This document shows positions 424 to 64,000 of a stretch of DNA of 64,000 nucleotides, piece after piece. The translations under genes and the position numbers were made by a program. Source of the DNA: Alphaproteobacteria bacterium (GTDB lineage: Bacteria > Pseudomonadota > Alphaproteobacteria > Rhodobacterales > Rhodobacteraceae); contig JAUIFH010000001.1 in the NCBI GenBank assembly GCA_030429495.1, positions 186,001 through 250,000 on the forward strand, in the 5' to 3' direction. The notes below the pieces were generated by a model. The model saw only the letters and a program-made list of their open reading frames with translations, was not told where the DNA came from and searched no databases. Positions within the stretch are counted from its first letter, which is position 1. Every line of letters begins with the position of its first letter.

Positions 424-645
424 GCCGTCACACCCGACGGCGTTTGTCTGCCTTCACGCACGGCCGGTCTCCTGACTCGCGGGTCGTCGCATGCCTTCCG
501 CCTTCCCGGGGGCGAACCCCAGTGGCCGTTGGAAAGCCGCTCGCCGCTTACAGTCGCGGGGGCGGTTGAGGCTTTGGGTGCCGCGTTTGGTCCACCCTAC
601 CCCATTCCCGTTTCAGTCCGGACGCTTTGCGCCATTCGGACGCCG
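424..645 (-). promoter_or_regulatory. Cobalamin (B12) riboswitch upstream of cbtBA
   Basis: On the minus strand the B12 box AGTCAGGAGACCGGCC is at 462-477. The other conserved blocks are present in the right order: GCCACTG (520-526), GGGAAGGCG, CCCGCGACTGTAAGCGG, and the 5-prime block with ACGGGAAT. A small hairpin (GCCGTC/GACGGC, 424-441) sits just before the cbtB ribosome-binding site AAGGAG, which suggests control of translation initiation or of a short attenuator. The 5-prime boundary is approximate. Confidence 0.93.
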
Positions 646-739
646 TACAATTCACATGTGCCAGCTTGGGCCGGTTCCGGTCAAGCGGCATTGCGTCTTG
701 GAACCGACTGAAAACGACCTCGGCCCCGGTTTGGCACGG

Positions 740-3871: not shown

Positions 3872-4230
3872 TCGTCTCTCCCTATCGCAATGGCGGCGGT
3901 TGCCAGCCTGTCGCCCGAAACCGCCCTTGGCCCGAGAAGCCGCGCGCCGGGTCCGGCGGCGGCAAGGGCTGCTGCCTCGGCCACCGATCCCGTGCCGAAC
4001 CGTTCGGCGACATGTGGCGAATGGGTCAGCGTGTCTTCCGCGTCAAGAGCGGCCAGGTCGATTCCACAAAGCCTAAGGCCGAGGAACGCGGCCAACTCCC
4101 GCGCGACTGGCGCATCGGCCTTTGCGGATGCCGTGGCAAGAAGGTCCGCGCTGCCGCCGGCCCGTTCCAGCGCGTCGCGCAAGGAAGCGAGTGTCGCCGC
4201 CTTCCGGAACCCGATCCCCGCCACCCTCAT
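3868..4230 (-). CDS. cobE: CobE/CbiG C-terminal domain protein
   Basis: A 120-residue protein equivalent to the C-terminal domain of CbiG, beginning [21 protein letters not shown]. It carries the family features [16 protein letters not shown] and [24 protein letters not shown]. CobE is found in aerobic cob operons; its exact step is uncertain, though it is linked to ring contraction or precorrin-5 processing. The ATG at 4230 overlaps the cobL stop (ATGA), which fixes the start against a longer open frame. The stop overlaps the cobM start. Confidence 0.85.
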
Positions 4231-6162: not shown

Positions 6163-6872
6163 ACGAAGCGTCCGACACGTCGGGTGTCGCGGTTGCCGAA
6201 GATGACGACGGTGCGCATATCGGCCATCTCGGGTGTCGCCTCGGCCAGGGTCACAGTGTTCAGCGCCTCCTCCGGCGTCGTCACCGCGCGGGCGAATGAA
6301 ATCAGCGTCTCCGGCCCCGCCTCCTCGCGCAGGATCTCCAGCGCGCGGGCAAACTGGTGTGGGCGGCTTTTCGAGCGCGGGTTGTAGAAGGCCATCGCGA
6401 AACCAGCTTGTGCGGCAAGGCGCAATCGGTGTTCCACCAACTCCCACGGCTTGAGATTGTCCGAAAGGTTGATCGCGCAGAAATCGTGGCCCAATGGAGC
6501 GCCGAGCCGTGAGGCGGCGGCCAGCATCGCGGTGATGCCGGGCAGGATGCGTATGTCGTAGGCCCGCGCGTCGGGCCGTTCCTCCAGCGTCTCGAACAAG
6601 GCCGAGGCCATTGCGAAGACGCCGGGATCGCCGGAGGAGACGATGACGACGCGCTTGCCTTCACCCGCCATGTCGAGCGCGTGGCCGGCGCGGTCCAGCT
6701 CCACCCGGTTATCGGAGGGGTGCAGGGTCAGCCCGTCCCGCGGTGTGATGCGGGCGACGTAGGGAATGTAGCCGACAACATCGGTCGCCTCGGCCAGAGC
6801 GGCGCGCACCTCGTCGGTCACCAGCCGTTCGTCGCCCGGCCCGAGGCCGGCTACTGCGATCCAGCCGCTCAT
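6138..6872 (-). CDS. cobJ: Precorrin-3B C17-methyltransferase
   Basis: Catalyses SAM-dependent C17 methylation with ring contraction to precorrin-4. The 244-residue protein begins MSGWIAVAGLGPGDERLVT and has VVIVSSGDPGVFAMASALFE. ILPGITAMLAAASRLGAPLGHDFCAINLSD and AFYNPRSKSR are hallmarks of CobJ/CbiH. The ATG at 6872 overlaps the cobI stop; a longer frame begins within cobI but lacks support. The 3-prime end converges on cobK with a 25-base overlap. Confidence 0.95.
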   Translation of the reverse strand: MSGWIAVAGLGPGDERLVTDEVRAALAEATDVVGYIPYVARITPRDGLTLHPSDNRVELDRAGHALDMAGEGKRVVIVSSGDPGVFAMASALFETLEERPDARAYDIRILPGITAMLAAASRLGAPLGHDFCAINLSDNLKPWELVEHRLRLAAQAGFAMAFYNPRSKSRPHQFARALEILREEAGPETLISFARAVTTPEEALNTVTLAEATPEMADMRTVVIFGNRDTRRVGRFVYTPRSAR

Positions 6873-7591
6873 GGCCGCCGCCCCTGTCCGTGCACGACCG
6901 CGATAGAGAAATAGGGTACCTTGGCGGGGGCCTCGCAAAGCCGGTGCACCTTCTGGTCCGTCATCGTGCCGCGCTCCACCAGCCAGGCGGTGTTGAGCCG
7001 CCCCGCCGCCGCCAGGCAGCGTTTCAGCTTTTCCAGATTGCGGCCGATCTTCATCACCACCAGCGCATCGGTGTCGCGGATACGGCGGGTCAATTCGTCC
7101 TCATCCATAGTCGCGGTGACTACGGTCAGAACATCGTCTCCCCAGGTGATCGGCTCACCCGTCGCGGTCCAGCAGCCGGACATGCCGGTGATGCCGGGGA
7201 TCACTTCCACCACGTTGCGCGCGCGGAGCCGCGTGTAGAGATGCATGAAGCTGCCGTAGAAGAACGGGTCCCCTTCACAAAGCACCAAAACAGTCTCTGT
7301 TTCAGCCAAAACCGCTAGTTTTTCCGCCCAGTCCTCATAGAACTCCGCCATCACCCGGTTGTATTCAGGGTCTGAGAAATGGATCTCCGTCGTCACTGGA
7401 TATTCCATGGGATATTCGATGGCATCCGCGCGCAACATGCCGTTGACGATCTTGCGCGCCTGCCCCTCATAACCCGCCTTGCGAAAGTACGCGATATGGG
7501 TCGAGGAGCGCACAAGCCGGTCGGCCTTGACGCTCATCAGATCGGGGTCGCCAGGGCCGAGGCCGACGCAGATGACCTTTCCCATGTTCAT
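6869..7591 (-). CDS. cobI: Precorrin-2 C20-methyltransferase
   Basis: SAM-dependent methylation of precorrin-2 at C20 to precorrin-3A. The 240-residue protein starts MNMGKVICVGLGPGDPDLMS. It carries VLCEGDPFFYGSFMHLY and VEVIPGITGMSGCWTATGEP, both diagnostic for CobI/CbiL. The ATG at 7591 overlaps the cobH stop in ATGA. The open frame extends further upstream inside cobH, but that part is out-of-frame shadow. It sits in the pathway order between cobH and cobJ. Confidence 0.95.
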   Translation of the reverse strand: MNMGKVICVGLGPGDPDLMSVKADRLVRSSTHIAYFRKAGYEGQARKIVNGMLRADAIEYPMEYPVTTEIHFSDPEYNRVMAEFYEDWAEKLAVLAETETVLVLCEGDPFFYGSFMHLYTRLRARNVVEVIPGITGMSGCWTATGEPITWGDDVLTVVTATMDEDELTRRIRDTDALVVMKIGRNLEKLKRCLAAAGRLNTAWLVERGTMTDQKVHRLCEAPAKVPYFSIAVVHGQGRRP

Positions 7592-8217
7592 TCCTTCCGG
7601 CTGGCGAGCGCGTTGACGGCAGCGACGGTAATCGCCGAGCCACCGAGGCGGCCCTTCACGATGACGGACGGCACAGGCAGGTCCTGCATCAGCGCGTCTT
7701 TCGATTCGGCCGCGCCCACGAACCCCACCGGGCAGCCGATGATCGCCGCGGGGCGCGGGCAGGCGGGGTCTTCCAGCATGTTCAGGAGGTGGAAAAGTGC
7801 GGTGGGCGCATTGCCGATGGCGACCACGGCGCCGTCCAGATGCGGCCGCCACAGTTCCAGTGCGGCGGCGGAGCGGGTGTTGCCCATCTCTTTCGCCATG
7901 CCGGGGACGCGCGGGTCCTGCAGGGTGCAGATGATCTCGTTGCCCGCTGGCAGGCGCGAACGGGTGATGCCCTCGCTGACCATGCGTGCATCGCAGAGGA
8001 TCGGTGCTCCGGCCTCAAGTGCTGCTCGGGCGGCGATGGCCATGCCTGGTGAAAAGCGGACATGTTCCTCAAGTCCGACCATCCCGGCGGCGTGGATCAT
8101 GCGGACGACGATGACCTCCTCCTCTGGCGTGAAGCGGGAAAGGTCGGCCTCGGCGCGGATGGTGGCGAAGCTCTCGAGGTAAATCGCGGCGCCGTCGGTC
8201 TGGTAGCTATGGGGCAT
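7588..8217 (-). CDS. cobH: Precorrin-8X methylmutase
   Basis: Moves the C11 methyl group to C12, giving hydrogenobyrinic acid. The 209-residue protein has ERVVxRMIHAAG-type sequence (VVRMIHAAGMVGLEEHV), DARMVSEGITRSRLP and ALFHLLNMLEDP. The CPVGFVGAAESKDAL block near the C-terminus contributes to the CobH/CbiC active site. It overlaps cobG by 11 bases upstream and cobI by 4 downstream. Length is normal for the family. Confidence 0.95.
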   Translation of the reverse strand: MPHSYQTDGAAIYLESFATIRAEADLSRFTPEEEVIVVRMIHAAGMVGLEEHVRFSPGMAIAARAALEAGAPILCDARMVSEGITRSRLPAGNEIICTLQDPRVPGMAKEMGNTRSAAALELWRPHLDGAVVAIGNAPTALFHLLNMLEDPACPRPAAIIGCPVGFVGAAESKDALMQDLPVPSVIVKGRLGGSAITVAAVNALASRKE

Positions 8218-9385
8218 CTTGGGTCTCGGTCAGAAGGGCGGGAGTGGCGGTGAGCGTCGCGGGCGAAAGCCCGGTCCGCGAAGGCGTGTCGGCGGCGGTA
8301 CCGTTCCGGATCAGGTCGATGGCGCCGCCGGCGCGGCCGACGAGCGTCAGGGCCGAGGGCGCGGGATGGGCGCAGCCCTTGGCGCAGCCGGAGACATGGA
8401 GCCGGTCAGCGGGTGCAAGTGACGCGCAGAGCGCGCGCGCCAGCGGCCGCGTCGCGATCAGTGCCTGCGGGCAGCCGGGTGCGCCGGTACAGGCGGTCAC
8501 GCGCAGCATCGGGTCGGCGGGATCGGTGATCAGGCCGGGAATGGCGGGCGCCTGCTTGGCGCCCTCGATCAGGATCATGCGCCAGGGCGTGATCCGCAAA
8601 GCACCGCTTTCGGCAAGAACAGACAAGGTTTCGGCCGCCATCTGGCCGAATTCGAAGCCGACGAGGTAGCCGAGCGGCAGAGGTCCCGGCACGGGGGCGG
8701 GGGCGCTCGCGCGCGGCAGCGCCGGGATCTCGGTGAACAGCTTGGGCTGGCGCGCACCGCGCGCCAGATGCGCCGCCATGCGACCGCGGCCATCGGGCGC
8801 GCCGCCGGTTTCGAGGAACCATTCCGCGAGCCTGAGCGCCAGCCGCGCCGCGGTTTGTTGCGTCGCCTCGGCGCCTGAGCCCACGCCATCGGGGCGGACC
8901 AGAAGGACGCCGCCGGGGCCGCGCTCGATCCGGATATCGGCGGAGGTTTCGCTGAGAACTGGCTGGTTCCCGCAATCAACGACATAGCCGAACTTACCCG
9001 GCGTCTGCGGCGCGTCCGGCTGGCCCAGTGCTTTGGCCAGCGACCGCACCACCTCCTGCACCCCGTCGCCGTCCTGCCAGTAGGGCGTGACCACGATATT
9101 GCGGCGGCTCTCGGCCTCTGTCGTCTCGTCGATCAGGCCGAGGGCGGCGAGGCCCTCGATCAGCGGGCCGTGTGCATCTTCGGTCACGCCCCGAAGCTGG
9201 ACATTGGCGCGGGCTGAGAGGTCGATGAGCCCGTTGCCATACTGCGCGGACAGCGCGGCGATGCCCTTTGCCTGCTCCGGCGTCAGCCGCCCGCCGCGTG
9301 GTCGGATGCGCACGACAAGACCGTCGCCCGACATCATTGGCCTTAGGGCGCCGGGGCACCAGCCCTTGATGACAGGATCGCTCAT
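8207..9385 (-). CDS. cobG: Precorrin-3B synthase
   Basis: Oxygen-dependent C20 hydroxylation and gamma-lactone formation on precorrin-3A. Its presence marks the aerobic route, as opposed to CobZ or the anaerobic CbiH route. The 392-residue protein is a nitrite/sulfite-reductase-like ferredoxin-half protein. The C-terminal cysteine set CTGAPGCPQ...SGCAKGCAHP ligates the [4Fe-4S]/siroheme-type centre, and the N-terminal half has RGVTEDAHGP. It is coupled to cobN (ATGA) and overlaps cobH by 11 bases. Confidence 0.93.
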   Translation of the reverse strand: MSDPVIKGWCPGALRPMMSGDGLVVRIRPRGGRLTPEQAKGIAALSAQYGNGLIDLSARANVQLRGVTEDAHGPLIEGLAALGLIDETTEAESRRNIVVTPYWQDGDGVQEVVRSLAKALGQPDAPQTPGKFGYVVDCGNQPVLSETSADIRIERGPGGVLLVRPDGVGSGAEATQQTAARLALRLAEWFLETGGAPDGRGRMAAHLARGARQPKLFTEIPALPRASAPAPVPGPLPLGYLVGFEFGQMAAETLSVLAESGALRITPWRMILIEGAKQAPAIPGLITDPADPMLRVTACTGAPGCPQALIATRPLARALCASLAPADRLHVSGCAKGCAHPAPSALTLVGRAGGAIDLIRNGTAADTPSRTGLSPATLTATPALLTETQDAP

Positions 9386-12300
9386 TCCCCCGCCTCCATC
9401 GCAATGGAGTTGCGCCGGGTGACCCAGAGCCCGGCATCGCGCAAGGCGGCGAAGCGGTCGCGCATCGCCTGAAGGGCGGCGGGGTTTTCCGCCTCCATGA
9501 AGGCCACGACGTCATCCCGGCCTATGGTCGCCTCGTGATAGAGGTCGAAAAGATGCGCAGGAACCGCGCGGGCGAGATGGGCGAAGGCAGCCATATGGTC
9601 GAGCGTCGCCGCGATCTCGGCCGCACCGCGGAAACCGTGGCGCATCATGCCGTCGGCCCAGTTCGGGTTCGCCGCACGGGCGCGGACGACGCGACCAATC
9701 TCCTCGGGCAGCGTCCGGGCACGGGGTGTGTCGGGACGGGTCGCGTCAAGATGGTAGAGAGCCGGGGCTTCACCCCCCAGTCTTGCGATGGCGGCGGCAA
9801 AACCGCCCTCATGCGCGGCGTAGTCGGACGCCAGCAGCAGGTCAGTTTCGGCGAGGTCCTGAATGTGGACGAAACCGTCCGCGCCCTTCACCTGTTCCTC
9901 CAGTGCCGCGCGTGCGGGACGGGTCGCGCCCGAAGCGTCGATGGCCCATTCGGAGCCTGACAGCCATGCCTCACCGGCGGCATGTTGGCCCTCGGGTCCG
10001 TAGTCCTCGATCGCCTCCCCCATGGCGAGGCCGTAGAGGCCTGGCTTCGGACCGAAGACACGGGGAGAAGCGCGCAAGTACGGGTTGTCCGCCGCCGCTT
10101 CCTCACGCTCGGCAAGCGCCTTGGCTGCGGCTTCGAAAAGCTGGGCCAGCCCTGAGAAAACGTCTCTGAACAAGCCCGAAACGCGCAAGGTGACGTCGAT
10201 CCGGGGGCGGCGCAGAAGGGCGAGCGGTATGACCTCGAAGCCCGAGACACGCTCGGACCCCTCGTCCCATTTCGGGCTGACACCGGCGAGGTGCAGAGCC
10301 ATCGCGAATTCCTCACCTGCCGTGCGCATCGTGGCGGACCCCCAGAGGTCGATGACCAGAGATTTCGGCCAGTCGCCGTGGTCCTGCAGGTGGCGGCGCA
10401 GCAGCTCCTCGGCGAGTTTCACGCCCTGCGCGTGGGCGGCGCGCGAGGGCACCGCACGCGGGTCTGTCGTGAAGAGATTACGCCCCGTGGGCAGCACGTC
10501 GGAGCGGCCCCGGAACGGTGAGCCGGAGGGGCCGGCCTCCACCCGCTGGCCGTTCAGCGCGGCCAAGAGCCCTTTGCGTTCCTCCGCGCCGCACTGACCG
10601 GTGCCGAAGATATGCAGCCCATCGCCATACTGGCTTTCCTTGATGTCGCAGACGAAGCGGTCGATCCGGGTGATTGCCTCGGCGGGCGAGGCGTCCTCGG
10701 GGATGCCAAGATCGTCCTCCACCCCGCGCCCGCGTGCTTCCTCGCGGATCGACTGAATGAGCCGGTCTCGGCGGGCGGGGTCGAGCCCGTCGGCGGTGGA
10801 ATACTCGTCAAGCAGCCTTTCGAGCCGGTTCAGGTCCTCCGGCACCGCGCTGTCGACCAGAGGCGGCGGCAGGTGGCCGATGGTCACGGCGCCAATGCGG
10901 CGCTTGGCCTGCGCGGCCTCGCCCGGGTCGTTGACGATGAAGGGATAGATGACGGGCAGGGGGCCGGTCAGCGCCTCGGGCCAGCACGCGGCGGAAAGGG
11001 CCACCGACTTGCCCGGCAGCCATTCCAGCGTCCCATGCGCGCCGATATGGATCAGCGCATGGAGCCCCTGCGCCCGGAGCCAGAGGTAGAAAGCAACATA
11101 GGCATGGCGCGGGGTTCGGCTCAGGTCGTGGTAGTCGTCGCTCCGGGTTGTGACCTCGCCGCGTTCGGGTTGCAGGGCGAGGATGGCCTTTCCACGACGA
11201 ATCGCGTTGAAGCGGAAGTGACCGTCCGTGACGGAGGGATCGGTTTCAGGCGCGCCCCAGGCGGCAGATAGCGCGTCGCAAAGGGGGGCGGGTAGGGTCG
11301 AAACAGTGTCTATGTAGGCTGAAACGGGCCATTCCAGCGTTTCCGCCATCAGTGACTGACCAAGGTCCTCACCCGCGTTCACATCATGATTTCCGTCGGC
11401 AAGGGCCGAAAGGATGCCTTCTGCCGAGGCCAGCGCGTCGAGGCCCACGGCATGGGCCAACTGGTGTGTCTTGCCGGGATAGGTGGACAGGACCAGCGCG
11501 ACGTTGCGGTCAGGCGCGAGCGTCATCGACAGGCGGTGCCAGCCCGCCACGCGGTCGGCGACGGCGGCGATGCGATCGGGGTCGGCGCGGTGGGCGAAGC
11601 GGGAATATTGCAGGTCGGGGTCGCGGCGGCCGGGGCTCTTGAAGCTGGTGACGCCGGCGAAGACGCGGCCATCGACCTCCGGCAGCACGACATGCATGGA
11701 GAGATCGGCGGGCGAGAGGCCGCGTTCGGCCTCTTCCCAGTCCTTTTTCCGTGCGGTGGAAAGGGCCACCTGAAAGACCGGGCACCCAGAGGCGTCGAGG
11801 GGAGAGGAGGAACCATCCGCGCCTTTGGCCGAGAAGGCTGTGGCGTTGACGATGACGGCGGGTTTGAGCCGTGTCAGCTCAGCGCGCAGCCATGCTGCGG
11901 CGGAAGGGTCCTTCAGCGAGGCGGCATAGGCGCCGATGGCGGCGAAGCCGCGTTCTTCCAGCGCCGCGACCAACGCGTCCACTGGATCGGTGTCGGCCGA
12001 CGTCAGGTAGGAGCGGTAGAAGGTGACGACGGCGAGGGGGCGGTCGGACGCCTCGGGCGTAGGCGCGACACCCTTGCGCGGCAGGTACCAGCCGAAGGCG
12101 GGCACAGTCTTGTCACCGGCAACCGGCCCGGCATAGAGGCCTGCCGCCAGCGCCATCTGCTGAAGGGCGGCCTGCGCTGCCACCGCTCCGCCCGCGTCGC
12201 AGAGCGATTGCAGGCGGCGGAGGGTCGATTTCGGTAAGGTCGAGAGTTCGTCGAGCCGCGCATCCTCGCGCCCGTCCGCGGGCAGTATCGCCAGCGCGAT

Positions 12301-55195: not shown

Positions 55196-55642
55196 TTATT
55201 TGACATCGCGTACCAGCAGTTTGCGGCCGTTGAATTCGCAGGTGTCGCCCGCCTTCTTGCCCTCCAGCGCCGCGTAGATCGGAGCGGCAGTCGAAATGCC
55301 GATGAAATTGCGGCCGGCGCATTCGAACGCGCCGGTCGATACCGCAACAACGAGGTAGCGGTCACCAAGATCTACTGCCGCGCCTTCCTCGACCTCGGAT
55401 TTCGGTCCGAAATCAATCTGCCTGAGCGCGCGCAGCTTGGCTTCGTTGTCGTGCGTGTTGTCGTCGAAAGCCTCCGCAAGATCGGCGGCGGTTTCGGCCT
55501 GAGCCTGTTCGTCAGCCTCGATCGGTTCGGTCCGGTCAAGCCGCGCCGCCTCAAGGAACTGCGCGTATTTCCGTTTTGCCTGCGCCAGATCGGCCTCGGC
55601 CAGGGCCATCATCGTCGCTCTGAGGTGTTCCTTGTCGATCAT
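55196..55642 (-). CDS. GreA/GreB C-terminal-domain-like protein
   Basis: A 148-residue soluble protein starting MIDKEHLRATMMALAEADLA. The helical N-terminal half is rich in Glu/Ala (EPIEADEQAQAETAADLAEAF). The C-terminal beta-rich half is GISTAAPIYAALEGKKAGDTCEFNGRKLLV, cited by PIYAALEGKKAGD, resembling the GreA/GreB FKBP-like domain. It may bind RNA polymerase; that is a weak inference. The ATG at 55642 is preferred to the longer frame start. It is convergent with the amide operon, with a 21-base gap. Confidence 0.65.
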   Translation of the reverse strand: MIDKEHLRATMMALAEADLAQAKRKYAQFLEAARLDRTEPIEADEQAQAETAADLAEAFDDNTHDNEAKLRALRQIDFGPKSEVEEGAAVDLGDRYLVVAVSTGAFECAGRNFIGISTAAPIYAALEGKKAGDTCEFNGRKLLVRDVK

Positions 55643-55742
55643 TGTTTTTCCTTTTCTGATGCAGTCGTTAAACTCGGTGTTCCGCACTGCTCTGAACCCT
55701 GCCGGACGGGATCATGGCAGACCAGCGAAGGGGGGACGAAAC

Positions 55743-56432
55743 TTGGGCGCTGCATTGTCGATTGCCGTCCTTTTCACGGTTTCCAGCACGATCGTCCGCG
55801 TTGCGAGCGTCGTTCTGGAGCATTCGGGCATTCCGATGTCGGTCGCCCGGATTCAGGCGTTGTCGGCGTTGAGCGGCACGGGTTTTACGACGACTGAATC
55901 CGAGATGATCCTTCTGACGCCTGTCCGGCGGAAGGTTCTGGCGACACTGATGATCGCGGGGAGTATCGGACTTGCATCCATCGCGGCGACGATCGTGGTC
56001 GGCGCCTTCGGGGTCAGCAAGACGCCCAACGGGCTGGCCGGACAGGTGGCCGCTATCGCCGCCGCAATCGTATACGGGCGCTACATCCTGCTTTCGCCGC
56101 GCGTCGATGCGTTTGTCTGCGGGTTCGCCTATCGCTGGCTGGAGCGCGAGGGCGAGGGCCGGTGCAGCTTCACTGTCGTTCACCGTCTTGCCGAGGATTG
56201 GCTGATCGCCGAACACCTTCTGCGGGAGGATATTGCGGCGGAGCCTGCGGAATGGTCCTTCGAAGGGCTGACGCCCCTTGGCGTCCGCGACCCGGTTTCG
56301 GGCGAGGCCGAACACCCCTGGAGCGGCGCACGGCCGGAACGTGGGCAGGCACTTGTCCTTCTCGGGCCAATCGCGGCCCATTCCAGCTTCGCGGACCGCT
56401 ATGGAAGTACGGCGTTTGGCCGGGGTCACTGA
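55743..56432 (+). CDS. Small membrane protein with cytoplasmic domain (TrkA-C-like)
   Basis: A 229-residue protein with a TTG start, chosen because of GGGGGGA seven bases upstream and the hydrophobic start LGAALSIAVLFTVSSTIV. Two to four helices (about 5-25, 60-85, 92-112) are followed by a soluble C-terminal part. QALSALSGTGFTTTESEMI and LTPVRRKVLATLMIAG resemble a family of TrkA-C-domain membrane proteins. It is 3 bases from a CorA/ZntB-type gene, so ion homeostasis is likely. Function is not known. Confidence 0.6.
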   Translation: MGAALSIAVLFTVSSTIVRVASVVLEHSGIPMSVARIQALSALSGTGFTTTESEMILLTPVRRKVLATLMIAGSIGLASIAATIVVGAFGVSKTPNGLAGQVAAIAAAIVYGRYILLSPRVDAFVCGFAYRWLEREGEGRCSFTVVHRLAEDWLIAEHLLREDIAAEPAEWSFEGLTPLGVRDPVSGEAEHPWSGARPERGQALVLLGPIAAHSSFADRYGSTAFGRGH

Positions 56433-56435
56433 TCC

Positions 56436-57371
56436 ATGAAGGACGCGCAGACGAACCCGGGCTTCATCCACTTGTTCGAACTTGGCAGCGGCGCGCTGTC
56501 CTGGCTGCACATGTGCATCCGTCACGAAGAGACCAGCCGCTTCCTGATGGATGAGGTTGCGCTGGACGATCTGATCGTCGACGCGATGATCGAGGAGGAT
56601 ACCCGATCGCGCATCCGGGTGCGTCCGGACGGGATCATGGTCTTGCTGAAGGCCATGCATGTGCAGGGTGAGGACATGGCGATGCCCGAGGACATGATCT
56701 CGCTCCGCATATGGATCGACGAGCACCGCATCATCACCACGCGCGAGGCCGACATCGACCCGATCCGCGAGATGGTCCGGCGCATCGGGGCGGGCCGTGG
56801 ACCAGAGAATGCAGGCGCATTCCTGGCGGACCTCATCGAACTCCATCTCGATGAGGTCGACCCCTATATCGAACGGCTTGAGGATTCGGTGAACCACCTC
56901 GACCGTAAGGTAGCCGTGCACGATCTTGAAGAAAGCTGCCCCCGGCTCTCGGACACGCAGTTGCAGATCAGCGCGTTCCTGCGCCACCTCGAACCGCAGC
57001 GGCATGTGTTGCAGGTTCTGTCCGCGCTCGACCACCCAGTCCTTGCGGACCGGGACCGCACACGTTTCGACAATGCGCTGAACCAGTTGCTGCGGATACT
57101 CGAAACGCTCCAAAGCCTGCGTGAGCGTTCCGACATCCTGAACGACCAGATGACGAGGATACAGGATCGTCAGCTTGCGCGAACGTCCTACATCTTCGCT
57201 GTCGCGGCGACGGTCTTCCTGCCGCTCGGTTTCGTCACCGGCCTGTTCGGCGTGAACCTTCTGGGAATTCCCATGTCCGGTCATCCGCAAGGCTTCGCGA
57301 TCCTTCTCGGCGTCTGCGCACTGGTCAGTGTGGTGCTTCTGGCATTCTTCCGGTGGCGCCGCTGGTTCTGA
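56436..57371 (+). CDS. CorA/ZntB-type divalent metal transporter
   Basis: A 311-residue protein with a long soluble N-terminal domain (helical in LDRKVAVHDLEESCP and RLLRILETLQSLRERSDIL). Two C-terminal helices flank the motif GLFGVNLLGIP. The GVN form is typical of ZntB-like members, in contrast to the RMN of the CorA-like protein at 43 kb. The FRWRRWF tail is as expected. Metal could be Mg, Zn or other. It is coupled to the preceding membrane protein gene. Confidence 0.85.
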   Translation: MKDAQTNPGFIHLFELGSGALSWLHMCIRHEETSRFLMDEVALDDLIVDAMIEEDTRSRIRVRPDGIMVLLKAMHVQGEDMAMPEDMISLRIWIDEHRIITTREADIDPIREMVRRIGAGRGPENAGAFLADLIELHLDEVDPYIERLEDSVNHLDRKVAVHDLEESCPRLSDTQLQISAFLRHLEPQRHVLQVLSALDHPVLADRDRTRFDNALNQLLRILETLQSLRERSDILNDQMTRIQDRQLARTSYIFAVAATVFLPLGFVTGLFGVNLLGIPMSGHPQGFAILLGVCALVSVVLLAFFRWRRWF

Positions 57372-57405: not shown

Positions 57406-57720
57406 TCACGCGCCGCCGCGTGTTTTCGCGTGGTGCTCGACCACTTCGGCAACGACGACATCGTATTCCAGGAACACATCGGCTTTGCCGCGTTCCTTGG
57501 CGTATTTGTGTTCGGGATGGACGTCCCATTCCTCGATGGCCTCGAAACTCTCGAAATAGCCGATGAGGACCGCCTCTCCGTCTGCGGCGGTGAAGACCTT
57601 GTGGCTGATATATCCTTTCAGCCCGCGCACGATGGTGACCATCCGCGTATAGAGGTCATCGAACTCACCCTTGAAATCCGGGTCGACGCGGTGCCGGAAC
57701 ACTTCGACATGCATGGCCAT
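57406..57720 (-). CDS. Antibiotic-biosynthesis-monooxygenase-fold protein
   Basis: A 104-residue ABM-like dimeric alpha/beta-barrel protein. It starts MAMHVEVFRHRVDPDFKGEF and has GLKGYISHKVFTAADGEAVLIGYFESFEAIEEW, cited by GYFESFEAIEEWDVHPEHK. The spacing of aromatic and His residues matches the superfamily, but no activity can be assigned. It is 23 bases after the antiporter gene, the last gene of the stress operon. Confidence 0.7.
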   Translation of the reverse strand: MAMHVEVFRHRVDPDFKGEFDDLYTRMVTIVRGLKGYISHKVFTAADGEAVLIGYFESFEAIEEWDVHPEHKYAKERGKADVFLEYDVVVAEVVEHHAKTRGGA

Positions 57721-57743
57721 CTACTATTCTCCTCCTTGGCAGA

Positions 57744-58946
57744 TTAACGGGGTTTGGACATTCGTCCGATGCGCGTGGCAAGCGGGTTGGCGGATAGCCC
57801 GTGCAGCAGGATCGACATGCCGACGGTCAGAGAGACGCAGGCAAGCAGTTCCTCTTCACCGGGGAAATCGAACTCATCAATCATGATGAGAGTGAAGAGG
57901 ATCGAGGCAAGCCCGCGCGGGCCGAACCATCCGAGGAACAGCTTCTCGTGCGTGGGCAAGCCCGATCCGGCGAGCGACACGAAGATCGGCAGAACGCGGA
58001 CGATCGTCAGAAACAGAAACGCCAGAACAACCGTGCCGTCGCCGACATGGCGAAGGCCGTCAGGCAGCAGGAACGCGCCGAACACGAAAAAGGCGGACAT
58101 GGTGAGAATCTGGCCGGCGCCTTCCATGAACTCCCTCACGAAGTGAATATCGTGCCGGTAGGTGTTGCCGAACGTCATCCCGGCAACGAACGCGGCGATG
58201 AAACCATTGCCGCGGATCAGTGTCGCGAGCAGGAAGGCAGCGAAGGCAGTGCACAGGAATATCACTCCTGTCGCGGCCTCTGCCGTCATGTCATGGTTCT
58301 GCGCCCAGTCCAGCAGGCGCGCGACGATCCACCCCACCGCGATCCCCGCAACCGGTGCGAGAACAATCTCGGTGATCGCCTCCAGCGCCAGTCCATGAGT
58401 GTCGGCGGGGCCCATCGTCGCGGAAGCAAGGATCGCCCCGAACAGGACGAACGGCAGGGCCAGCCCGTCGTTCAGCCCACTTTCGACATTGATGCTGCGG
58501 GCGAGGTGTCCGGGGACGTCGGGACTCGTCACTACCGATTGGCCGAGTGCCGCATCGGTCGGGGTCAGCAGCGCCGCCGTCAGCAGCGCCATCGCCAGCC
58601 CCGATCCGGGGTTCAGGCCGTAGGCGACCGCAGTTCCGAGGGCGACAGTCAGCGGCATGCCGATCACGAGCATCCGCGCGGGGATTGTCCAACTGGACGC
58701 GAGCTTGCGGAACCGGACATGGCTGGCGTCGGAGAACAGGACGAGGATCAGCGTGACTTCGGCCAGCTGCCGCTTGCCTTCGCTGAGCAGTCCGGGATCG
58801 GAATACATGGTCAGCGGCCTTGAAAGGACAAGGCCAAAGGCCGTGAACAAGATCGGCAGCGTCAGGATGCTGCGCCCAAGGGCTTTGCTGAACAGCGAAT
58901 AGGCCGCGAAGGCCACCAGGACGGCGAGGGCAAGGAACGGCGTCAT
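57744..58946 (-). CDS. Cation/proton antiporter (CPA family)
   Basis: Inner-membrane Na+ or K+/H+ antiporter of 400 residues with about 12 hydrophobic helices. SRPLTMYSDPGLLSEGKRQLAEVTLILVLFSDA-type residues and LLTPTDAALGQSVV (ion-binding region) are seen. NVESGLNDGLALPFVLFGAILA is the CPA1 landmark, and WFGPRGLASILFTLIM occurs near the end. It starts 2 bases after msrA, in the SelO/redox operon. The link suggests pH or salt stress. There is no C-terminal TrkA-N regulatory domain. Confidence 0.88.
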   Translation of the reverse strand: MTPFLALAVLVAFAAYSLFSKALGRSILTLPILFTAFGLVLSRPLTMYSDPGLLSEGKRQLAEVTLILVLFSDASHVRFRKLASSWTIPARMLVIGMPLTVALGTAVAYGLNPGSGLAMALLTAALLTPTDAALGQSVVTSPDVPGHLARSINVESGLNDGLALPFVLFGAILASATMGPADTHGLALEAITEIVLAPVAGIAVGWIVARLLDWAQNHDMTAEAATGVIFLCTAFAAFLLATLIRGNGFIAAFVAGMTFGNTYRHDIHFVREFMEGAGQILTMSAFFVFGAFLLPDGLRHVGDGTVVLAFLFLTIVRVLPIFVSLAGSGLPTHEKLFLGWFGPRGLASILFTLIMIDEFDFPGEEELLACVSLTVGMSILLHGLSANPLATRIGRMSKPR

Positions 58947-58948
58947 GA

Positions 58949-59434
58949 CTACGTATCCTTCATTAGGGCCGGAAGCTGCCGCCGCAGCTTCGCAAGCTTC
59001 GGGTCGATATAGGTCTGGCAGAACGGTCGGCCGGGGTCTTTCGCGTAGTAGTCGTGGAATCGCTCATCGGACGGTTTGAACGATCGGTGCGGGAGGATGC
59101 GGGTCACGAACGGCGTCCCCGTCTCGGCCGACAGGTCTTGCAAGTGTTTGCGCGCCTGATCCGCCTGCTCCGGGTCGAAGGTATAGATTGCGCTGCGGTA
59201 CTTCCCGCGCAACTTGTGATCGGACGTGCTGGCATGGGTCAGCAGATGGGCGAGGATCAGCGCGCGCAGGTCCGCGACCTCGGCGTCGAATGTCACCATC
59301 ACGGCTTCGGACAAGCCGTCATCTGGTGGGTCAGAGGCGATGAAGCCCTGTGCGGCATTCTCGACGCCGCGCAGCGACTGGAACACCGCCTCGGTGCACC
59401 AGTGGCATCCGCCGCCGAATCCGATGCGCTGCAC
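58949..59434 (-). CDS. msrA: Peptide-methionine (S)-S-oxide reductase
   Basis: Repairs oxidised methionine. The 161-residue protein has GFGGGCHWCTEAVFQSLRGV with the catalytic cysteine C10 and a second at C13. DHKLRGKYRSAIYTFDPEQ and FVTRILPHRSFKPSDERFHDYYAKDPGRPFC, in shortened form FHDYYAKDPGRPFC, follow. The catalytic motif is GCHWC instead of the common GCFWG. It is 3 bases after the AhpD-like gene and 2 before the antiporter. Confidence 0.9.
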   Translation of the reverse strand: MQRIGFGGGCHWCTEAVFQSLRGVENAAQGFIASDPPDDGLSEAVMVTFDAEVADLRALILAHLLTHASTSDHKLRGKYRSAIYTFDPEQADQARKHLQDLSAETGTPFVTRILPHRSFKPSDERFHDYYAKDPGRPFCQTYIDPKLAKLRRQLPALMKDT

Positions 59435-59437
59435 CGC

Positions 59438-59896
59438 TCAGCCCGCCACCGGAACGGCGCCCTGGGCGAGTTTCAAGCGCGTCCAGACATTCATGTTGAT
59501 GACGATCGCGGCGATCTCGGCAATCGCCTTTGCATCGAAATGCGACGTCAGCGCCGCGTGCGTGGCAGGAAAGGCCCGCAGATCGTAGTTCGTCAGCGCT
59601 TCGCAATAAGCCAACGCCTCACGCTCGGCGTCGGTGAACATCGTGCTTTCGCGCCAGCTGGCGAGGTGGGCGACCTTCTCGGTCGCGATTCCCTGATCCT
59701 GCGCGGCTTTCGTGTGCAGGATCAGGCAATAGGAACACGCGTTGATCTGCGCGACACGCAGCCGCAGCAACTGCGCCAGTTGCCCGTCTACCGTCAGGTC
59801 CGCCGTGTAGCCCACGGACTTCGCCATCTGTTTGGCGAGGTCGTGAAACTCGACCAGATCCGGATCGAACCGCGTGTTTTCGAAGGTCACATTCAT
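59438..59896 (-). CDS. AhpD/carboxymuconolactone decarboxylase-like protein with CxxC
   Basis: A 152-residue helical protein with the redox motif INACSYCLILHTKAA (C54, C57, H61), characteristic of alkylhydroperoxidase-type CMD proteins. The C-terminal half has YCEALTNYDLRAFPATHAAL and the conserved AEIAAIVINMNVWTRL. The ATG at 59896 overlaps the upstream fusion-gene stop (ATGA). It probably reduces peroxides, unlike the CxxC-lacking CMD at 26.2 kb. Confidence 0.85.
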   Translation of the reverse strand: MNVTFENTRFDPDLVEFHDLAKQMAKSVGYTADLTVDGQLAQLLRLRVAQINACSYCLILHTKAAQDQGIATEKVAHLASWRESTMFTDAEREALAYCEALTNYDLRAFPATHAALTSHFDAKAIAEIAAIVINMNVWTRLKLAQGAVPVAG

Positions 59897-60426
59897 ACTC
59901 GTTCCCCCAGATTGAATTTCCTGCGCCATTCAGGCCGCGTCGATGCAACGCGCCGCATGAACGGGCAGGTGATGCGTATTTCATGCGGGCGGGTTTCGAC
60001 CTCTTCCAGGACCTCGGTCACAAACCGCGTGCCCAGACCGGAGCCGCGCAGGCTTCCGTCCACCTCCACATGGGTCAGGACCATCCGGTCGCCCTGACAG
60101 ACATAGCTGACGAACGCATCCGCAGACGCCATGTGTCGGACGAAGCGTTGCGAGTGTTCGTCGTGGATCAGCCCGGGGTCGTAGAGGCCCGCGCGCGCAA
60201 GCGCCTTGTCGAGGTCCGGCAGCAGCGGGTTCCGCAGCTTTCGGCCCTTGATCGCGAAAGTGGGAAACTTGGTCGGGCTGCCTGCAAGCTCCGTCAGCCG
60301 GCGCGCGGCATCCACGTCCCGATCCACCTCGGCCAGTTCATAGGGCAGGCCGCGCTCCTCAAGCGCGGCCTGATAGAACCGCGTCTTCGGACACCGCACT
60401 TCACCGAAAAGGGTGATATCAGCCAT
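59893..60426 (-). CDS. Glutaredoxin - GNAT acetyltransferase fusion
   Basis: A 177-residue fusion. Residues 1-80 form a glutaredoxin-like domain (ITLFGEVRCPKTRFYQAAL with C12 of CPKT, and a cis-proline region TKFPTFAI), monothiol in form. Residues 85-177 are a COG2388-type Gcn5-like acetyltransferase (VDGSLRGSGLGTRFV acetyl-CoA loop; ITCPFMRRV and RPEWRRKF). It overlaps the oxidoreductase by 8 bases upstream and the AhpD-like gene by 4 downstream. Function of the combined protein is unknown. Confidence 0.8.
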   Translation of the reverse strand: MADITLFGEVRCPKTRFYQAALEERGLPYELAEVDRDVDAARRLTELAGSPTKFPTFAIKGRKLRNPLLPDLDKALARAGLYDPGLIHDEHSQRFVRHMASADAFVSYVCQGDRMVLTHVEVDGSLRGSGLGTRFVTEVLEEVETRPHEIRITCPFMRRVASTRPEWRRKFNLGERV

Positions 60427-61543
60427 CGGCGGCCAGCCTCCGCGCGTCGCGAAGCGATAGCCCGGTCCGGCCGAGCGGCGGGGCGGTGAACATCGCATAG
60501 GTCGCCGGCCGCTGATCGGCGTCGCTCCACTGATGCAGGTCGCGCAGGCCGTCCAGTTCGGCCAGGACGCTCTCGTGGTCGTGGTAGCTGGTATGGGTGA
60601 AGGCGCCACGCCGGTTCACGTCGCCGAGTGCCCAGATGCCGTTCACGTTGGTTCTCAGATGCGCGTCGGTCGGGATGTAGCCCCGCTTTTCGAGCGTGAC
60701 GCCGACCGCGTCGAGGTTCAGCCGGTCGGTGTTCGGCACCCGGCCGGTGGCGAACAGGACATGGCTGCCCGCGATCTCCTGCCCGTTCTCAAGCGTCATC
60801 AGGACGCCGCGCATGTTACGCGCGACCCCGGCGATTGCCGCGTCGAGATGAAGGGTGATCCCCTCGTCGCGCATGATGTCGGCGATGATGCCCGAGATGT
60901 CCTCATCCTCGCGGTCGGCAAGGTGGCTTCCGCGATGAACAATCGTGATCTTCGATCCGAGGCGACGGAATATCTGGCCCATCTCCAGCCCGATATAGCT
61001 GCCACCGACCACGATCAGATGGTCCGGCCGTTCCGTCAGCGACAGGAGCGAGGCATTGTGGAGATGGGGCACGCCGTCGAGCAGCGGCACCGGCGGAACC
61101 GGCGCGCGTGTGCCGGTGTTCAGGAACACCCGATCCGCGAGAATGCGTCCATCATCGACACCAACGACAAAGCCGCCCCCTTCATAGTGACCCTGAAGGC
61201 TTCCCCGGCCGCGAATGACCTCAACACCGTCGGTTCCGCCCAGCCAGTCGGAAAGCCCGGCACGCGCGGTATCGACACGATCTCGCATCCGGGCCATCGC
61301 CGCGGCGAAACCCACCTCGCCCGGCCCGCTGCGGATGCCGAAATCACCCGCGCGCCGGACAAGATGCGCGACGCGCGCCGATTTCCTCAACGTCTTGGTC
61401 GGGGTGCAGCCGGTGTTCACGCAGGTTCGGCCCAGCCGGTCAGCTTCGATCAGTGCGACCCGCTGGCCGCGCTTTGCAAGCCCTACGGCCAGCGAGGGTG
61501 CGGCCTGACCGGAGCCGATAATGACGCTGTCATACTTTTCCAT
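60419..61543 (-). CDS. Pyridine nucleotide-disulfide oxidoreductase, C-terminally short
   Basis: A 374-residue class-I flavoprotein of the mercuric/dihydrolipoamide reductase type. The FAD motif is VIIGSGQAAPSLAVGL, the redox disulfide CVNTGCTPTKT (C41, C46), and the NAD(P) loop IVVGGSYIGLEMGQIF. ILFATGRVPNTDRLNLD and GIWALGDVNRRGAF are present. The usual family length is about 450-460. It stops soon after APPLGRTGLSL, so most of the dimerisation domain, including the HPT..E catalytic motif, is missing. The next gene overlaps its end, and no remainder is found downstream. Confidence 0.85.
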   Translation of the reverse strand: MEKYDSVIIGSGQAAPSLAVGLAKRGQRVALIEADRLGRTCVNTGCTPTKTLRKSARVAHLVRRAGDFGIRSGPGEVGFAAAMARMRDRVDTARAGLSDWLGGTDGVEVIRGRGSLQGHYEGGGFVVGVDDGRILADRVFLNTGTRAPVPPVPLLDGVPHLHNASLLSLTERPDHLIVVGGSYIGLEMGQIFRRLGSKITIVHRGSHLADREDEDISGIIADIMRDEGITLHLDAAIAGVARNMRGVLMTLENGQEIAGSHVLFATGRVPNTDRLNLDAVGVTLEKRGYIPTDAHLRTNVNGIWALGDVNRRGAFTHTSYHDHESVLAELDGLRDLHQWSDADQRPATYAMFTAPPLGRTGLSLRDARRLAADG

Positions 61544-61561
61544 TGTCACGGTCCTCATTGA

Positions 61562-63040
61562 TCAGGTGCCGCAGAATGTCTTGTACCTCCCGAAATCCGC
61601 CGGGGCGGGTTCGGCATAGTCGCCGCAGCCATCCTGTTCGCTGAACGGATCGGACAGCACGGCCAGCAGCCGGTCGAACGGCGCCATGTCGTTCTGCAGC
61701 GCCGCCTGCAACGCTTCCTCGACCTTGTGGTTGCGCGGGATGTAGAGCGGGTTGGCCCGGTCCATCGCGGCTGCCCGCGCCGTTGACCCGATTTCCTCCT
61801 GCGCCAGCCGCAGGTCATAGCGCCCCCGCCATTCGTCGAACCCTGCGGGGTCGTCGAACAATGCCTGTGCCGGCGCGGCGTTGCCGCGTGCGACGCCGGA
61901 CATGGCCCGGAAGAGCTTGGTGAAGTCGACGTTCTGCCCCTCCATCGCGGTGTGCAGATCGTTGGCGAGGTTGATATCGTCTGGCAGTTCCCTGGCGAGA
62001 CCAAGCTTGGCGCGCATCACGTCCAGCCATGCGCTCTGGTAGTGGCCGGGGAAGGCGTTGATCTCGTTCGTGGCCTGCCGGATCGCATCGTCGGTATCGG
62101 CGGGGTTGATGAGTTCCAGAAGCGTTTCGGCGAACCGCGCGAGGTTCCACTGCGCGATCGACGGCTGATTGCCGTAGGCGTAGCGGCCGAGCTGGTCGAT
62201 GGAGCTGAAGACCGCTTTCGGATCGTAGCTGTCGATAAAGGCGCAGGGCCCATAGTCGATCGTTTCGCCGGAAATGGTCATGTTGTCGGTGTTCATGACG
62301 CCATGAACGAAGCCGACACCCACCCATTTGGCGACAAGCGCGGCCTGCGCATCGCGCACACGGCGCAAGAGTTCGATATAGCGATCATCGCGGTCCGCAA
62401 TGTCCGGGTAGTGCCGGGCGATTGCGTAGTCGGCCAGCTGGCGGACCTTGTCGGTCTCTCCGCGCGCCGCGAAGAACTGGAACGTCCCGACCCTGAGATG
62501 CGAAGCCGCGACCCGCGCGAGTACCGCGCCGGGCTGATAACCATCGCGCTCGACCGCCTCGCCGGTCGTGACAGCCGCGAGCGCACGTGTGGTCGGAATG
62601 CCGAGCGCATACATCGCCTCGCCGATCAGATATTCGCGCAGCACCGGGCCGAGTACCGCCTTGCCGTCGCCGCCGCGCGAAAACGGTGTGCGGCCAGAGC
62701 CCTTCAGGTGTATGTCGCGCCGGTGGCCGTTGCGGTCGATCACCTCGCCAATCAGCAGCGCACGCCCGTCGCCAAGTTGCGGCGAGAAGCCGCCGAACTG
62801 GTGACCAGCATAGGCCATCGCAAGTGGCGTCGCGCCTTCGGGGCTTTCGGCCCCGGAAAAGATCGCGGCGCCGGCTTCACCCTCCAGCGCATCGGCGTCC
62901 AGCCCGAGTTCAACCGCAAGCGGTCGGTTGAGGCGCAGAAGCGTCGGCGCGGGCACCTTCGCGCCCGTCCAAGGCACGTAGAAACCTTCAAGGTCGCGCG
63001 CGTAGGAGTTGTCGAATGCGAAACCTGTGAATGCGTTCAC
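61562..63040 (-). CDS. selO: Protein adenylyltransferase SelO (YdiU/UPF0061)
   Basis: A pseudokinase-fold protein that AMPylates targets; in E. coli glutaredoxin and other redox proteins are targets. The 492-residue protein begins MNAFTGFAFDNSYARDLEGF. It has YAGHQFGGFSPQLGDGRA, KGSGRTPFSRGGDGKAVLGP, HGVMNTDNMTISGETIDYGPC (shown as HGVMNTDNM) and a C-terminal FCGT tail. It is the first gene of a redox-stress operon with 18 bases before the oxidoreductase. Length and motifs agree with SelO. Confidence 0.95.
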   Translation of the reverse strand: MNAFTGFAFDNSYARDLEGFYVPWTGAKVPAPTLLRLNRPLAVELGLDADALEGEAGAAIFSGAESPEGATPLAMAYAGHQFGGFSPQLGDGRALLIGEVIDRNGHRRDIHLKGSGRTPFSRGGDGKAVLGPVLREYLIGEAMYALGIPTTRALAAVTTGEAVERDGYQPGAVLARVAASHLRVGTFQFFAARGETDKVRQLADYAIARHYPDIADRDDRYIELLRRVRDAQAALVAKWVGVGFVHGVMNTDNMTISGETIDYGPCAFIDSYDPKAVFSSIDQLGRYAYGNQPSIAQWNLARFAETLLELINPADTDDAIRQATNEINAFPGHYQSAWLDVMRAKLGLARELPDDINLANDLHTAMEGQNVDFTKLFRAMSGVARGNAAPAQALFDDPAGFDEWRGRYDLRLAQEEIGSTARAAAMDRANPLYIPRNHKVEEALQAALQNDMAPFDRLLAVLSDPFSEQDGCGDYAEPAPADFGRYKTFCGT

Positions 63041-63153
63041 TTGGTGGCTCCTTTTCCGTTTGGCTGTCCGATCGGGTCGCTCATGTTCGTTATCTTTTCG
63101 GCGGCTATCCCGAGGTGCCTGTGCATCTCGCGTCCGCCGCCGCTGGATAGGAA

Positions 63154-63178
63154 GGCCGGTCGACGCCGTCGACCGGCC
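63154..63178 (-). terminator. Hairpin after the redoxin gene
   Basis: GGCCGGTCGAC (63154-63164), GCC loop and GTCGACCGGCC (63168-63178) form a perfect 11-base-pair stem just beyond the redoxin stop on the minus strand, followed by TTCCT. It probably ends the redoxin transcript before selO. The rest of 63041-63183 holds no gene. Confidence 0.65.
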
Positions 63179-63183
63179 AAGGG

Positions 63184-63684
63184 TCAGGCCCGCTTCAGGT
63201 CGGCACTCTCGGCCCCCAGTGCGGCGAGGAACCGGGTGGGATCAAGCCGGAAGTCGGCGTAGACCACGTTGCCCTCGGGGTCGATCACGGTGAACCACGG
63301 GGTCCCGCCCGAACGATAGTCCTCCATGAAGGTCGGGTAGCGCTCTCCTTCGGGCGGCAGGTCGTGGCCGAACGGAATCTTCAGGCCGTACTGTTCCTGA
63401 TTGACCCTGAGCTTGTCGAACGTGTTGGTCTCGGCCCCTTCGAACACGGTCTGGATAACGGCGAAGCCGAAGCCCATGTCCTTCAGGTTCCCGTGCAGGT
63501 AGCGCAAGGTTGGGAATCCGCGCGAATGGCAGCCGGGGCACCAGTGCTGGAAGCAGTAGATGATCTTGTAGCCGTCGCCCAGATCGGCCAGCCGCAGCGG
63601 CCGCTCCATCGGATTGCCGTCGGCGTCGATCCAGTCGTTGACGCGAAGTTCCTTGGCCTTGTCGTGCAGCCCTCCGAATTGCAT
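63184..63684 (-). CDS. Thioredoxin-fold redoxin with CPGC motif
   Basis: A 166-residue thioredoxin-like or peroxiredoxin-like protein. IIYCFQHWCPGCHSRGFPTL holds the CPGC active site; GGTPWFTVIDPEGNVVYADF carries the cis-proline region. The ATG at 63684 has AAAGGA eight bases upstream, better than the one at 63699. It has no signal peptide. It lies upstream of selO on the same strand but is separated by a terminator-like hairpin. Exact role unknown. Confidence 0.82.
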   Translation of the reverse strand: MQFGGLHDKAKELRVNDWIDADGNPMERPLRLADLGDGYKIIYCFQHWCPGCHSRGFPTLRYLHGNLKDMGFGFAVIQTVFEGAETNTFDKLRVNQEQYGLKIPFGHDLPPEGERYPTFMEDYRSGGTPWFTVIDPEGNVVYADFRLDPTRFLAALGAESADLKRA

Positions 63685-63695
63685 CGTGTTTCCTT

Positions 63696-64000
63696 TCATG
63701 CTCGGCCGGTTTGCACCGGGCGCGTTCCTGTCGTGGCGTTGCCCTGTCGTGCCCGCCGCTCAAGCGCGGCCAGGTCGTAAAGCGGGAGGGGTATCACCTC
63801 ATCTCCGATTTCCGTCACGGCGGGCGAGAGGTAGCGAAGCCCTTCCACTTCCGCCTCAAGGCCCGGACCGACGCAAAGCCCGGTCCGGGTGTCGTTCAGT
63901 TTCAGCCAGCCATTTCGCACCAACCCTGATGTCAGCAGGTCGAGGGCAAGCTGGTCACCCGGCCCGGACGTGTTGATCGTCAGGCCCGCCCTCAGTTCCT
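63696..64000 (-). CDS. Unidentified protein, C-terminal part only
   Basis: An open frame continuing beyond the right edge. About 100 C-terminal residues are visible, including GLTINTSGPGDQLALDLLTS, GWLKLNDTRTGLCVGPGLEA and VIPLPLYDLAALERR. No membrane helix or known motif stands out, and I do not recognise it. It precedes the redoxin gene by 11 bases on the same strand and may be its operon partner. Confidence 0.55.
   Translation of the reverse strand, partial: ELRAGLTINTSGPGDQLALDLLTSGLVRNGWLKLNDTRTGLCVGPGLEAEVEGLRYLSPAVTEIGDEVIPLPLYDLAALERRARQGNATTGTRPVQTGRA

Follow-up and report, generated by a model that had tools for sequence, protein, structure and literature searches.

The stretch analysed here, called the window, comprises 64,000 nt of contig JAUIFH010000001.1, and near its end lies a minus-strand operon (L038 when the part beyond the window end is included) in which selO, encoding a protein adenylyltransferase (AMPylase), adjoins genes for a fused glutaredoxin-like and GNAT protein and for methionine sulfoxide reductases (Msr). 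Published work is cited by PubMed Central identifier, in each case from excerpts of the paper.

The operon around selO

The selO gene (61562-63040) has a GTG start and encodes 492 aa, which match PF02696 over profile positions 6-464 of 466 (397.4 bits against a cut-off of 22.8, 1.1e-118). It is followed on the same strand by the gene for a MerA/RclA-like FAD disulfide reductase of 379 aa, whose C-terminal dimerisation domain is gone (60419-61558, PF07992 with 202 bits). The next gene encodes the fusion (59893-60426), which joins a glutaredoxin-like domain with a CPKT motif to a YjdJ-type GNAT domain (PF14542). Then come a CMD/AhpD-core protein with a CSYC motif (59438-59896, PF02627, with TIGR00778 also above its cut-off), a divergent MsrA with a GCHWC motif, which is the second MsrA of the operon and is called MsrA2 here (58949-59434, PF01625), a Na+/H+ exchanger family antiporter, NhaP (57744-58946, PF00999), and a small ABM-domain protein of the antibiotic biosynthesis monooxygenase type (57406-57720, PF03992). 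The intergene distances from selO downstream are 3, -8, -4, 3, 2 and 23 bases, the first five of which bear out the preliminary description of a tight, one-stranded series of selO, an oxidoreductase, the glutaredoxin-GNAT protein, an AhpD-like CxxC protein, msrA and an antiporter.

That description placed selO at the head of the operon, which does not hold. Upstream of it, across a gap of 143 bases (63041-63183), lies the gene for a redoxin/TlpA-like protein with a CPGC motif (63184-63699), which scores slightly under the cut-offs of the Pfam models AhpC-TSA and Redoxin and has a homologue with 71-88% identity in the other evaluable operon copies. It is preceded by the 3' end of a gene for an FAD/NAD(P)-binding protein (63696-64000, NAD_binding_9, PF13454), which runs past the window (whole gene L038:7697-9142, 481 aa), and further upstream on the same strand and contig follow genes for MsrA, MsrB and a LysR regulator. 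Counting the regulator, selO is the sixth gene of the operon.

The gap between the redoxin gene and selO contains a perfect 11-bp palindrome (63154-63178) forming a hairpin, with a fold z of -3.17 that is matched by 2 of 200 shuffles. The palindrome is GC-rich, lacks a clear T run and was scored as no terminator, and it might attenuate or separate transcription. The promoter scan returned 0 sites and the terminator scan 5, with shuffled sequences giving 0.9 and 4.3, respectively. A PADLOC search of 5 proteins for defence systems gave 0 matches.

Conservation and transfer of the operon

The gene order recurs on plasmids and genome contigs and is thus not unique to this strain, and the proximity of an AMPylase and a glutaredoxin-like protein in a redox-repair operon, as proposed earlier, is conserved well beyond it. 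When the fusion was searched by tblastn, with no motif pattern, in 72,556 plasmid records, three of them covered at least 80% of it, namely the Aeromonas caviae plasmid p3_SCLZS52 (77% identity) and two Phaeobacter gallaeciensis plasmids (73%). Gene order was read in the A. caviae plasmid and in one Phaeobacter plasmid. The former carries LysR, MsrB, MsrA, the FAD protein, redoxin, SelO, the MerA-like reductase, the fusion, CMD, MsrA2, NhaP and ABM, with CorA convergent, keeping the window order with two extra genes, and the latter is partly rearranged and lacks the FAD and ABM genes. A scan of genome contigs with patterns including RC[PH]KTRFY or DITLFGE gave 14 loci, in which the conservation of these motifs is partly by construction, and the plasmid proteins were found without such patterns.

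We counted 15 fusion-bearing copies with common queries (the window locus, L032, L033 and L040-L051). CMD is present in all 15, SelO and MsrA2 in 13 each, and the MerA-like reductase in 12. Where the contig is long enough, MsrB, MsrA and LysR are each found in 13/13 copies, the redoxin in 14/14, NhaP in 13/14, the convergent CorA in 12/14 and ABM in 10/14. Twenty control windows at fixed offsets in family genomes, searched with the same queries, yielded 0 msr, 0 selO and one OsmC-type match. Because the order recurs in other genomes and the control windows lack msr and selO, the association of the operon genes goes beyond chance. The Aliiroseovarius (L046) and Oceaniglobus (L050) operons lack both selO and the reductase; a loss of SelO function there was considered and rejected, since both genomes encode SelO elsewhere.

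Among sampled species genomes the fusion is rare, and it came to light via plasmids and the contig scan. It is absent at full length from 197 other family genomes, 44 of which have weak matches, mostly to the GNAT half, and at E <= 1e-8 there is no match among 384 other genomes of the class. The glutaredoxin part alone, searched at E <= 1e-12 in 295 genomes of the Psychroserpens class, was found only in Psychroserpens itself. In 299 genomes of the phylum it gave 0 matches, a result that carries no weight because that search had no positive control.

Besides the Aeromonas and Phaeobacter plasmids, the carriers include Paracoccus, Falsigemmobacter, Defluviimonas and others. In DNA comparisons, the Paracoccus yeei copy (L041) shares 100.0% identity with those of P. 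lutimaris and Paracoccus sp. S1E-3 across 17-19 kb, 98.4% with Falsigemmobacter (16.9 kb) and 98.6% with Defluviimonas (18.6 kb), and the Falsigemmobacter and Defluviimonas isolates share 97.2%. Two contigs of metagenome-assembled genomes (MAGs), which carry the labels Rhodobacter and Sterolibacterium but may be misbinned, match the A. caviae plasmid with 100.0% identity over 13.9 and 16.1 kb. DNA identities of 97-99% over 17-19 kb across Paracoccus, Falsigemmobacter and Defluviimonas therefore show that forms of the operon move, and relatives of the operon move between genera on plasmids and islands. The window copy itself appears resident, because its G+C content of 0.64 resembles that of its surroundings in the window (0.62-0.69; other operon copies 0.55-0.60) and because its aligned pieces share only about 65-80% DNA identity with other copies.

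On the plus strand, convergent with the operon, the window encodes a CorA-family transporter (56436-57371, PF01544) and, beside it, a membrane protein (55632-56432) with 53% identity to L041:13966-14646, a homologue without a Pfam match. A homologue of this membrane protein adjoins CorA in eight operon loci besides the window's own. Further on, the minus strand at 55196-55687 may encode a GreA-like protein, as judged by eye only. The left flank matches another genome of the genus (G010, contig C12; 74%) up to about position 55164, and the best right-flank match lies on a different contig, so that no empty insertion site is demonstrable from the flank matches. In P. yeei, genes for molybdopterin oxidoreductase, uracil-DNA-glycosylase-type and DUF427-type proteins stand downstream of CorA (L041:15192-16676), as if further repair functions were travelling along.

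The reductase, the glutaredoxin-GNAT protein and SelO

The disulfide oxidoreductase of the preliminary description is this MerA/RclA-like reductase, and the protein is truncated. It has 379 aa where relatives have about 470; it breaks off where the dimerisation domain is just beginning and picks up again only with the final residues and the 8-base overlap with the fusion gene. Alignment to three relatives places an in-frame deletion of about 288 bp here, which the alignment to L049 put in two pieces. Similar LAA-coding words flank the missing stretch in L041, which suggests a repeat-mediated deletion. The FAD/NAD domain keeps its CxxxxC (TCVNTGC), and the redox motif reads LGRTC instead of the LGGTC or LGGSC of four relatives. 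The four homologues compared also have the C-terminal dimerisation domain with its His-Glu pair, and the HPTVxE motif is missing from the window protein. Enzymes of the glutathione-reductase family are active as dimers and use a C-terminal His-Glu pair. Since both the domain and the pair are gone, the window protein is probably inactive as a reductase.

The damage raises the question of whether the whole locus is a decaying island, its gene linkage being a relic of a mobile element. The deletion and the Arg in the LGGTC motif would fit this, as would the lack of a hypothetical gene after selO, of DUF417 and of PLD, all present in some relatives. Every other gene is open, however, and the tight overlaps are kept, the G+C content is like that of the surroundings, and no SelO besides the window's was found in its genome. 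We regard decay of the island as quite unlikely.

The fusion protein was predicted with AlphaFold from nine sequences, and the best of five models has two domains, with a mean predicted local distance difference test score (pLDDT) of 93.3 and a predicted template modelling score of 0.83 (mean pLDDT from 93.3 to 53.0 among the models). Modelled residues 1-84 resemble the thioredoxin-like protein BC3987 (Z 12.8, 1.8 A over 78 residues), Escherichia coli Grx3 (Z 10.9) and other glutaredoxins, and residues 84-173 resemble the GNAT proteins YjdJ and At1g77540 (Z 10-11). The predicted fold of the N-terminal domain is thus glutaredoxin/thioredoxin-like. The earlier assignment as a glutaredoxin domain stands as far as the predicted fold goes; by sequence the domain scores 19.8 bits against PF00462, under the cut-off of 22.9 (22.5 bits in the genome search), and its active site is CPKT, not a CPYC-type dithiol. 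The plasmid-encoded proteins of A. caviae, Phaeobacter and Citrobacter likewise have CPKT or CHKT.

In a Saprospiraceae genome the glutaredoxin (88 aa, CHKT) and the GNAT protein (94 aa) are encoded by separate genes with a 4-base overlap, located between a redoxin gene and selO. Because the split genes precede selO there too, the linkage of the glutaredoxin to selO is probably meaningful. Stand-alone CHKT glutaredoxins are found after MsrB and MsrA (L053) or after MsrB (L037), and in Psychroserpens a CHKT glutaredoxin lies 3' of MsrB and MsrA with no selO nearby. The Citrobacter plasmid L037 carries two msr groups (628-10542), one of msrB, a glutathione S-transferase gene and corA, with an msrA stretch detected by tblastn between the first two, and a second of msrB, the CHKT glutaredoxin, ABM and msrA, adjoining ISVsa3. 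A group of msrB, msrA, yfcG and corA is described as a neighbour of blaAFM (PMC9984417).

The preliminary description proposed that SelO AMPylates the glutaredoxin domain and thereby switches thiol repair on and off. E. coli SelO AMPylates and inhibits GrxA (PMC8097203, PMC12409994, PMC12663964), modifying Tyr13 in its active site (PMC8097203, PMC12409994). In the operon, selO is linked to the fusion in 13 of 15 copies and to the split form in Saprospiraceae, and the catalytic residues of SelO are intact. The active-site motif of GrxA is CPYC. The position of its Tyr13 is Lys14 in the fusion and Lys in the relatives, one of them a plasmid protein that came from a pattern-free search, so the proposed switch on this domain is unsupported. 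A conserved Tyr18, six residues after the active Cys12 and shared by the proteins of L052 and L037, could be another acceptor. The two other glutaredoxins found in the window genome have no Tyr at the GrxA position either (CPFC and CGFS). Weighing further against the switch are the two fusion operons without selO, though SelO is encoded elsewhere in those genomes, and the stand-alone relatives beside msr genes with no selO nearby. RNase Z, the reported deAMPylase (PMC12663964), was not found above the cut-off in the window genome, which is a weak test, as 5 of 14 control genomes likewise fall below. The switch is weakened, not refuted, and as a specific interaction within this operon we consider it very improbable. 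Nor does the label "self-contained" fit a system with a reductase lacking its dimer domain, with 2 of 15 fusion operons lacking selO and, by the weak test above, with no RNase Z.

SelO is found in 144 of 149 family genomes, and P. yeei has two. Residues K113, which we take to be catalytic, N253 and D262 are kept in all 57 SelO sequences compared, including that of the window, and the alignment to 6eac agrees. Besides the window's own, we inspected 36 selO neighbourhoods of the family (20 on long contigs and 16 top-scoring), a choice that was not random and includes some short contigs; L128-L131, SelO loci of other genomes, stand outside this count. MsrA and MsrB lie within about 7 kb of selO in four of the 36.

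A tree of the 57 SelOs places all 19 rows labelled msr-linked inside one clade of 24 rows (support 100/99). The label denotes an MsrA1- or MsrB-type neighbour, and L051, whose contig starts inside the redoxin gene, does not carry it; 12 of the 19 rows come from records found via the fusion, some copies are identical, and L112 sits on one very long branch. Among the 36 loci, msr linkage is seen in 4/8 clade members versus 0/28 non-members (Fisher p 0.0012 in this non-random sample). The sampled proteobacterial msr-linked SelOs thus form one supported clade, separate from the usual SelO of the family, and G010, the single other searched genome of the window's genus, has the ordinary type. In Psychroserpens (L131), selO has DUF427, MsrA2-type and OsmC-type neighbours, and the msrB-msrA-glutaredoxin group is on another contig of the genome. 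We also considered a redox switch of SelO that was relocated within the clade and rejected it, as Cys266 occurs in 53/57 SelOs, including 29/33 outside the clade.

A second type of selO cluster, consisting of msrA, redoxin, selO, msrB and an alpha/beta hydrolase gene, is found on plasmids of A. caviae (L032:287-4415), Comamonas and P. aeruginosa (L035 and L036), with the redoxin before selO unlisted in L036. The L035 and L036 clusters continue with DUF427, mercuric reductase-like and sulfite-oxidase-like genes, egtB and egtD. Both types occur together on the plasmid of A. caviae.

SelO may instead be a general stress AMPylase or UMPylase acting on other proteins, such as a redoxin, Msr or metabolic enzymes, and co-mobilised for the same stress with no specific partner in the operon. 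This agrees with the several substrates reported for E. coli SelO (PMC12663964) and with the msr-linked SelOs in otherwise different clusters (L034, L035, L036, L095, L113, L118 and L120). The same glutaredoxin and redoxin genes adjoin selO, in Bacteroidota too, which hints at a closer partner, and we hold the general role to be unlikely.

Proposed function and known systems

We favour, with somewhat better than even confidence, a LysR-linked operon that repairs oxidised methionine and thiols. MsrB, MsrA and the second MsrA-like protein would reduce methionine sulfoxide, and thiols, peroxide or Msr recycling would be the task of the redoxin, the glutaredoxin-like CxKT domain and the CMD/AhpD-like protein. 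The flavin reductase of the MerA/RclA superfamily would donate electrons in the relatives, a function probably lost here, and the antiporter, CorA and the FAD proteins would be accessories. SelO, which belongs to a distinct clade linked to msr, would be an accessory AMPylase, and the glutaredoxin-GNAT protein is likelier to take part in Msr and thiol repair itself than to be the target of a SelO switch. The sequences directly show the gene content and order, the conservation, the mobility of relatives, the clade, the truncation and the lack of the Tyr acceptor. The electron routes, the co-transcription and the roles of SelO and the GNAT domain are inferred, as is the inducing oxidant, most likely of the hypochlorous acid (HOCl) type.

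HOCl hits methionine and thiol groups, and Msr induction belongs to the response to it (PMC7464077). In five near-identical relatives (L041-L045) a DUF417 gene precedes selO (PF04224, 65.4 bits against a cut-off of 27), and RclC is the only NCBIfam match of its product, at 57.5 bits against a cut-off of 275. E. coli RclC is a DUF417 protein, and RclA is a hypothiocyanous acid (HOSCN) reductase (PMC12096828). A chlorine-type oxidant is favoured because of the Msr content, the RclC-like gene of these relatives and the RclA/MerA-superfamily reductase; within the wider repair reading it is a tentative choice, to which we give somewhat less than an even chance.

Several observations weigh against this picture. 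Many copies are near-identical, so that the 15 represent about nine lineages, and the MAG contigs L040, L047, L048, L049 and L052 may be misbinned plasmids. The window locus has no DUF417 gene and its reductase is truncated, and the chlorine reading therefore rests on the relatives. The window reductase scores 236 bits where the RclA equivalog cut-off is 740 and 240 where that of MerA is 454, and the full-length reductases of L032 and L041 reach 284 to 308 bits with the two models, also below both cut-offs. The regulator is of the LysR and not the AraC type of RclR, and all listed LysR models remain under their cut-offs for it (best 25 versus 43). Finally, the Psychroserpens SelO (L131), labelled "other" in the tree, falls outside the msr-linked clade together with the Saprospiraceae SelO; because it adjoins an MsrA2-type gene, the association of SelO with Msr extends beyond the clade.

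A more far-reaching possibility, which we hold to be very doubtful, is a portable stress module in which SelO works with a dedicated CxKT glutaredoxin-GNAT protein and a redoxin. SelO would AMPylate the redoxins of the operon away from the GrxA Tyr position, for example at Tyr18, the GNAT domain would add acetyl-CoA-dependent control, and the parts would first have been separate genes, as in Saprospiraceae, before spreading between bacterial classes. For the role of SelO in bacteria, the mobile clade linked to msr, redoxin and glutaredoxin genes offers a small, testable set of partners and oxidants. The operon is found on plasmids of A. caviae and of aquaculture Phaeobacter, and a related selO-msr cluster on a clinical Pseudomonas aeruginosa plasmid, raising the question of whether disinfectant-type oxidants select for it.

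The proximity of msr genes to selO is already known. Apparently new are the conserved glutaredoxin-GNAT operon and its movement from genus to genus, the SelO clade linked to msr and the split form in Saprospiraceae, for which no report was found among the open-access matches listed; the queries did not name the GNAT fusion, and this is weak evidence of absence. ICE-betaox of Legionella may be a parallel. In the neighbourhood statistics for msrB, msrA and btuE of Dudkiewicz 2012 (PMC3281104), msrB is significantly over-represented near selO and msrA shows an uncorrected trend. The msr genes near selO are shared with our operon, whereas the glutaredoxin-GNAT/CMD/reductase arrangement, the msr-linked clade and the mobility do not appear in the excerpt of that study. 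The acquired P. yeei island GIPye2 carries MsrA and MsrB genes, listed as putative virulence determinants (PMC6209633), and is perhaps the L041 region; the Msr genes are what it shares with the operon, and selO and the glutaredoxin-GNAT gene do not appear in the excerpt.

Like E. coli rclABC (PMC12096828, PMC7464077), the operon encodes a flavin disulfide reductase, from one and the same superfamily, and its L041-L045 copies add the DUF417 RclC-like protein; it differs in its LysR instead of AraC regulator, in the equivalog scores below cut-off and in the missing DUF417 gene of the window. The window SelO belongs to the same full-length family (YdiU/UPF0061) as the solved structures 6iii, 9jym, 6k20 and 6eac and shares Lys113, Asn253 and Asp262 with them. 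The entry 6eac is the Pseudomonas syringae SelO, and roles of N253 and D262 in SelO catalysis are described (PMC8097203). Unlike the solved proteins, the window SelO is a member of the msr-linked clade and has Phe278 at the position of a Cys of the 6iii and 9jym chains, which by count only is taken as Cys272 of the regulatory pair Cys272-Cys476; its Cys266 and the Cys of the C-terminal CGT are features that it has in common with the ordinary SelOs of the family.

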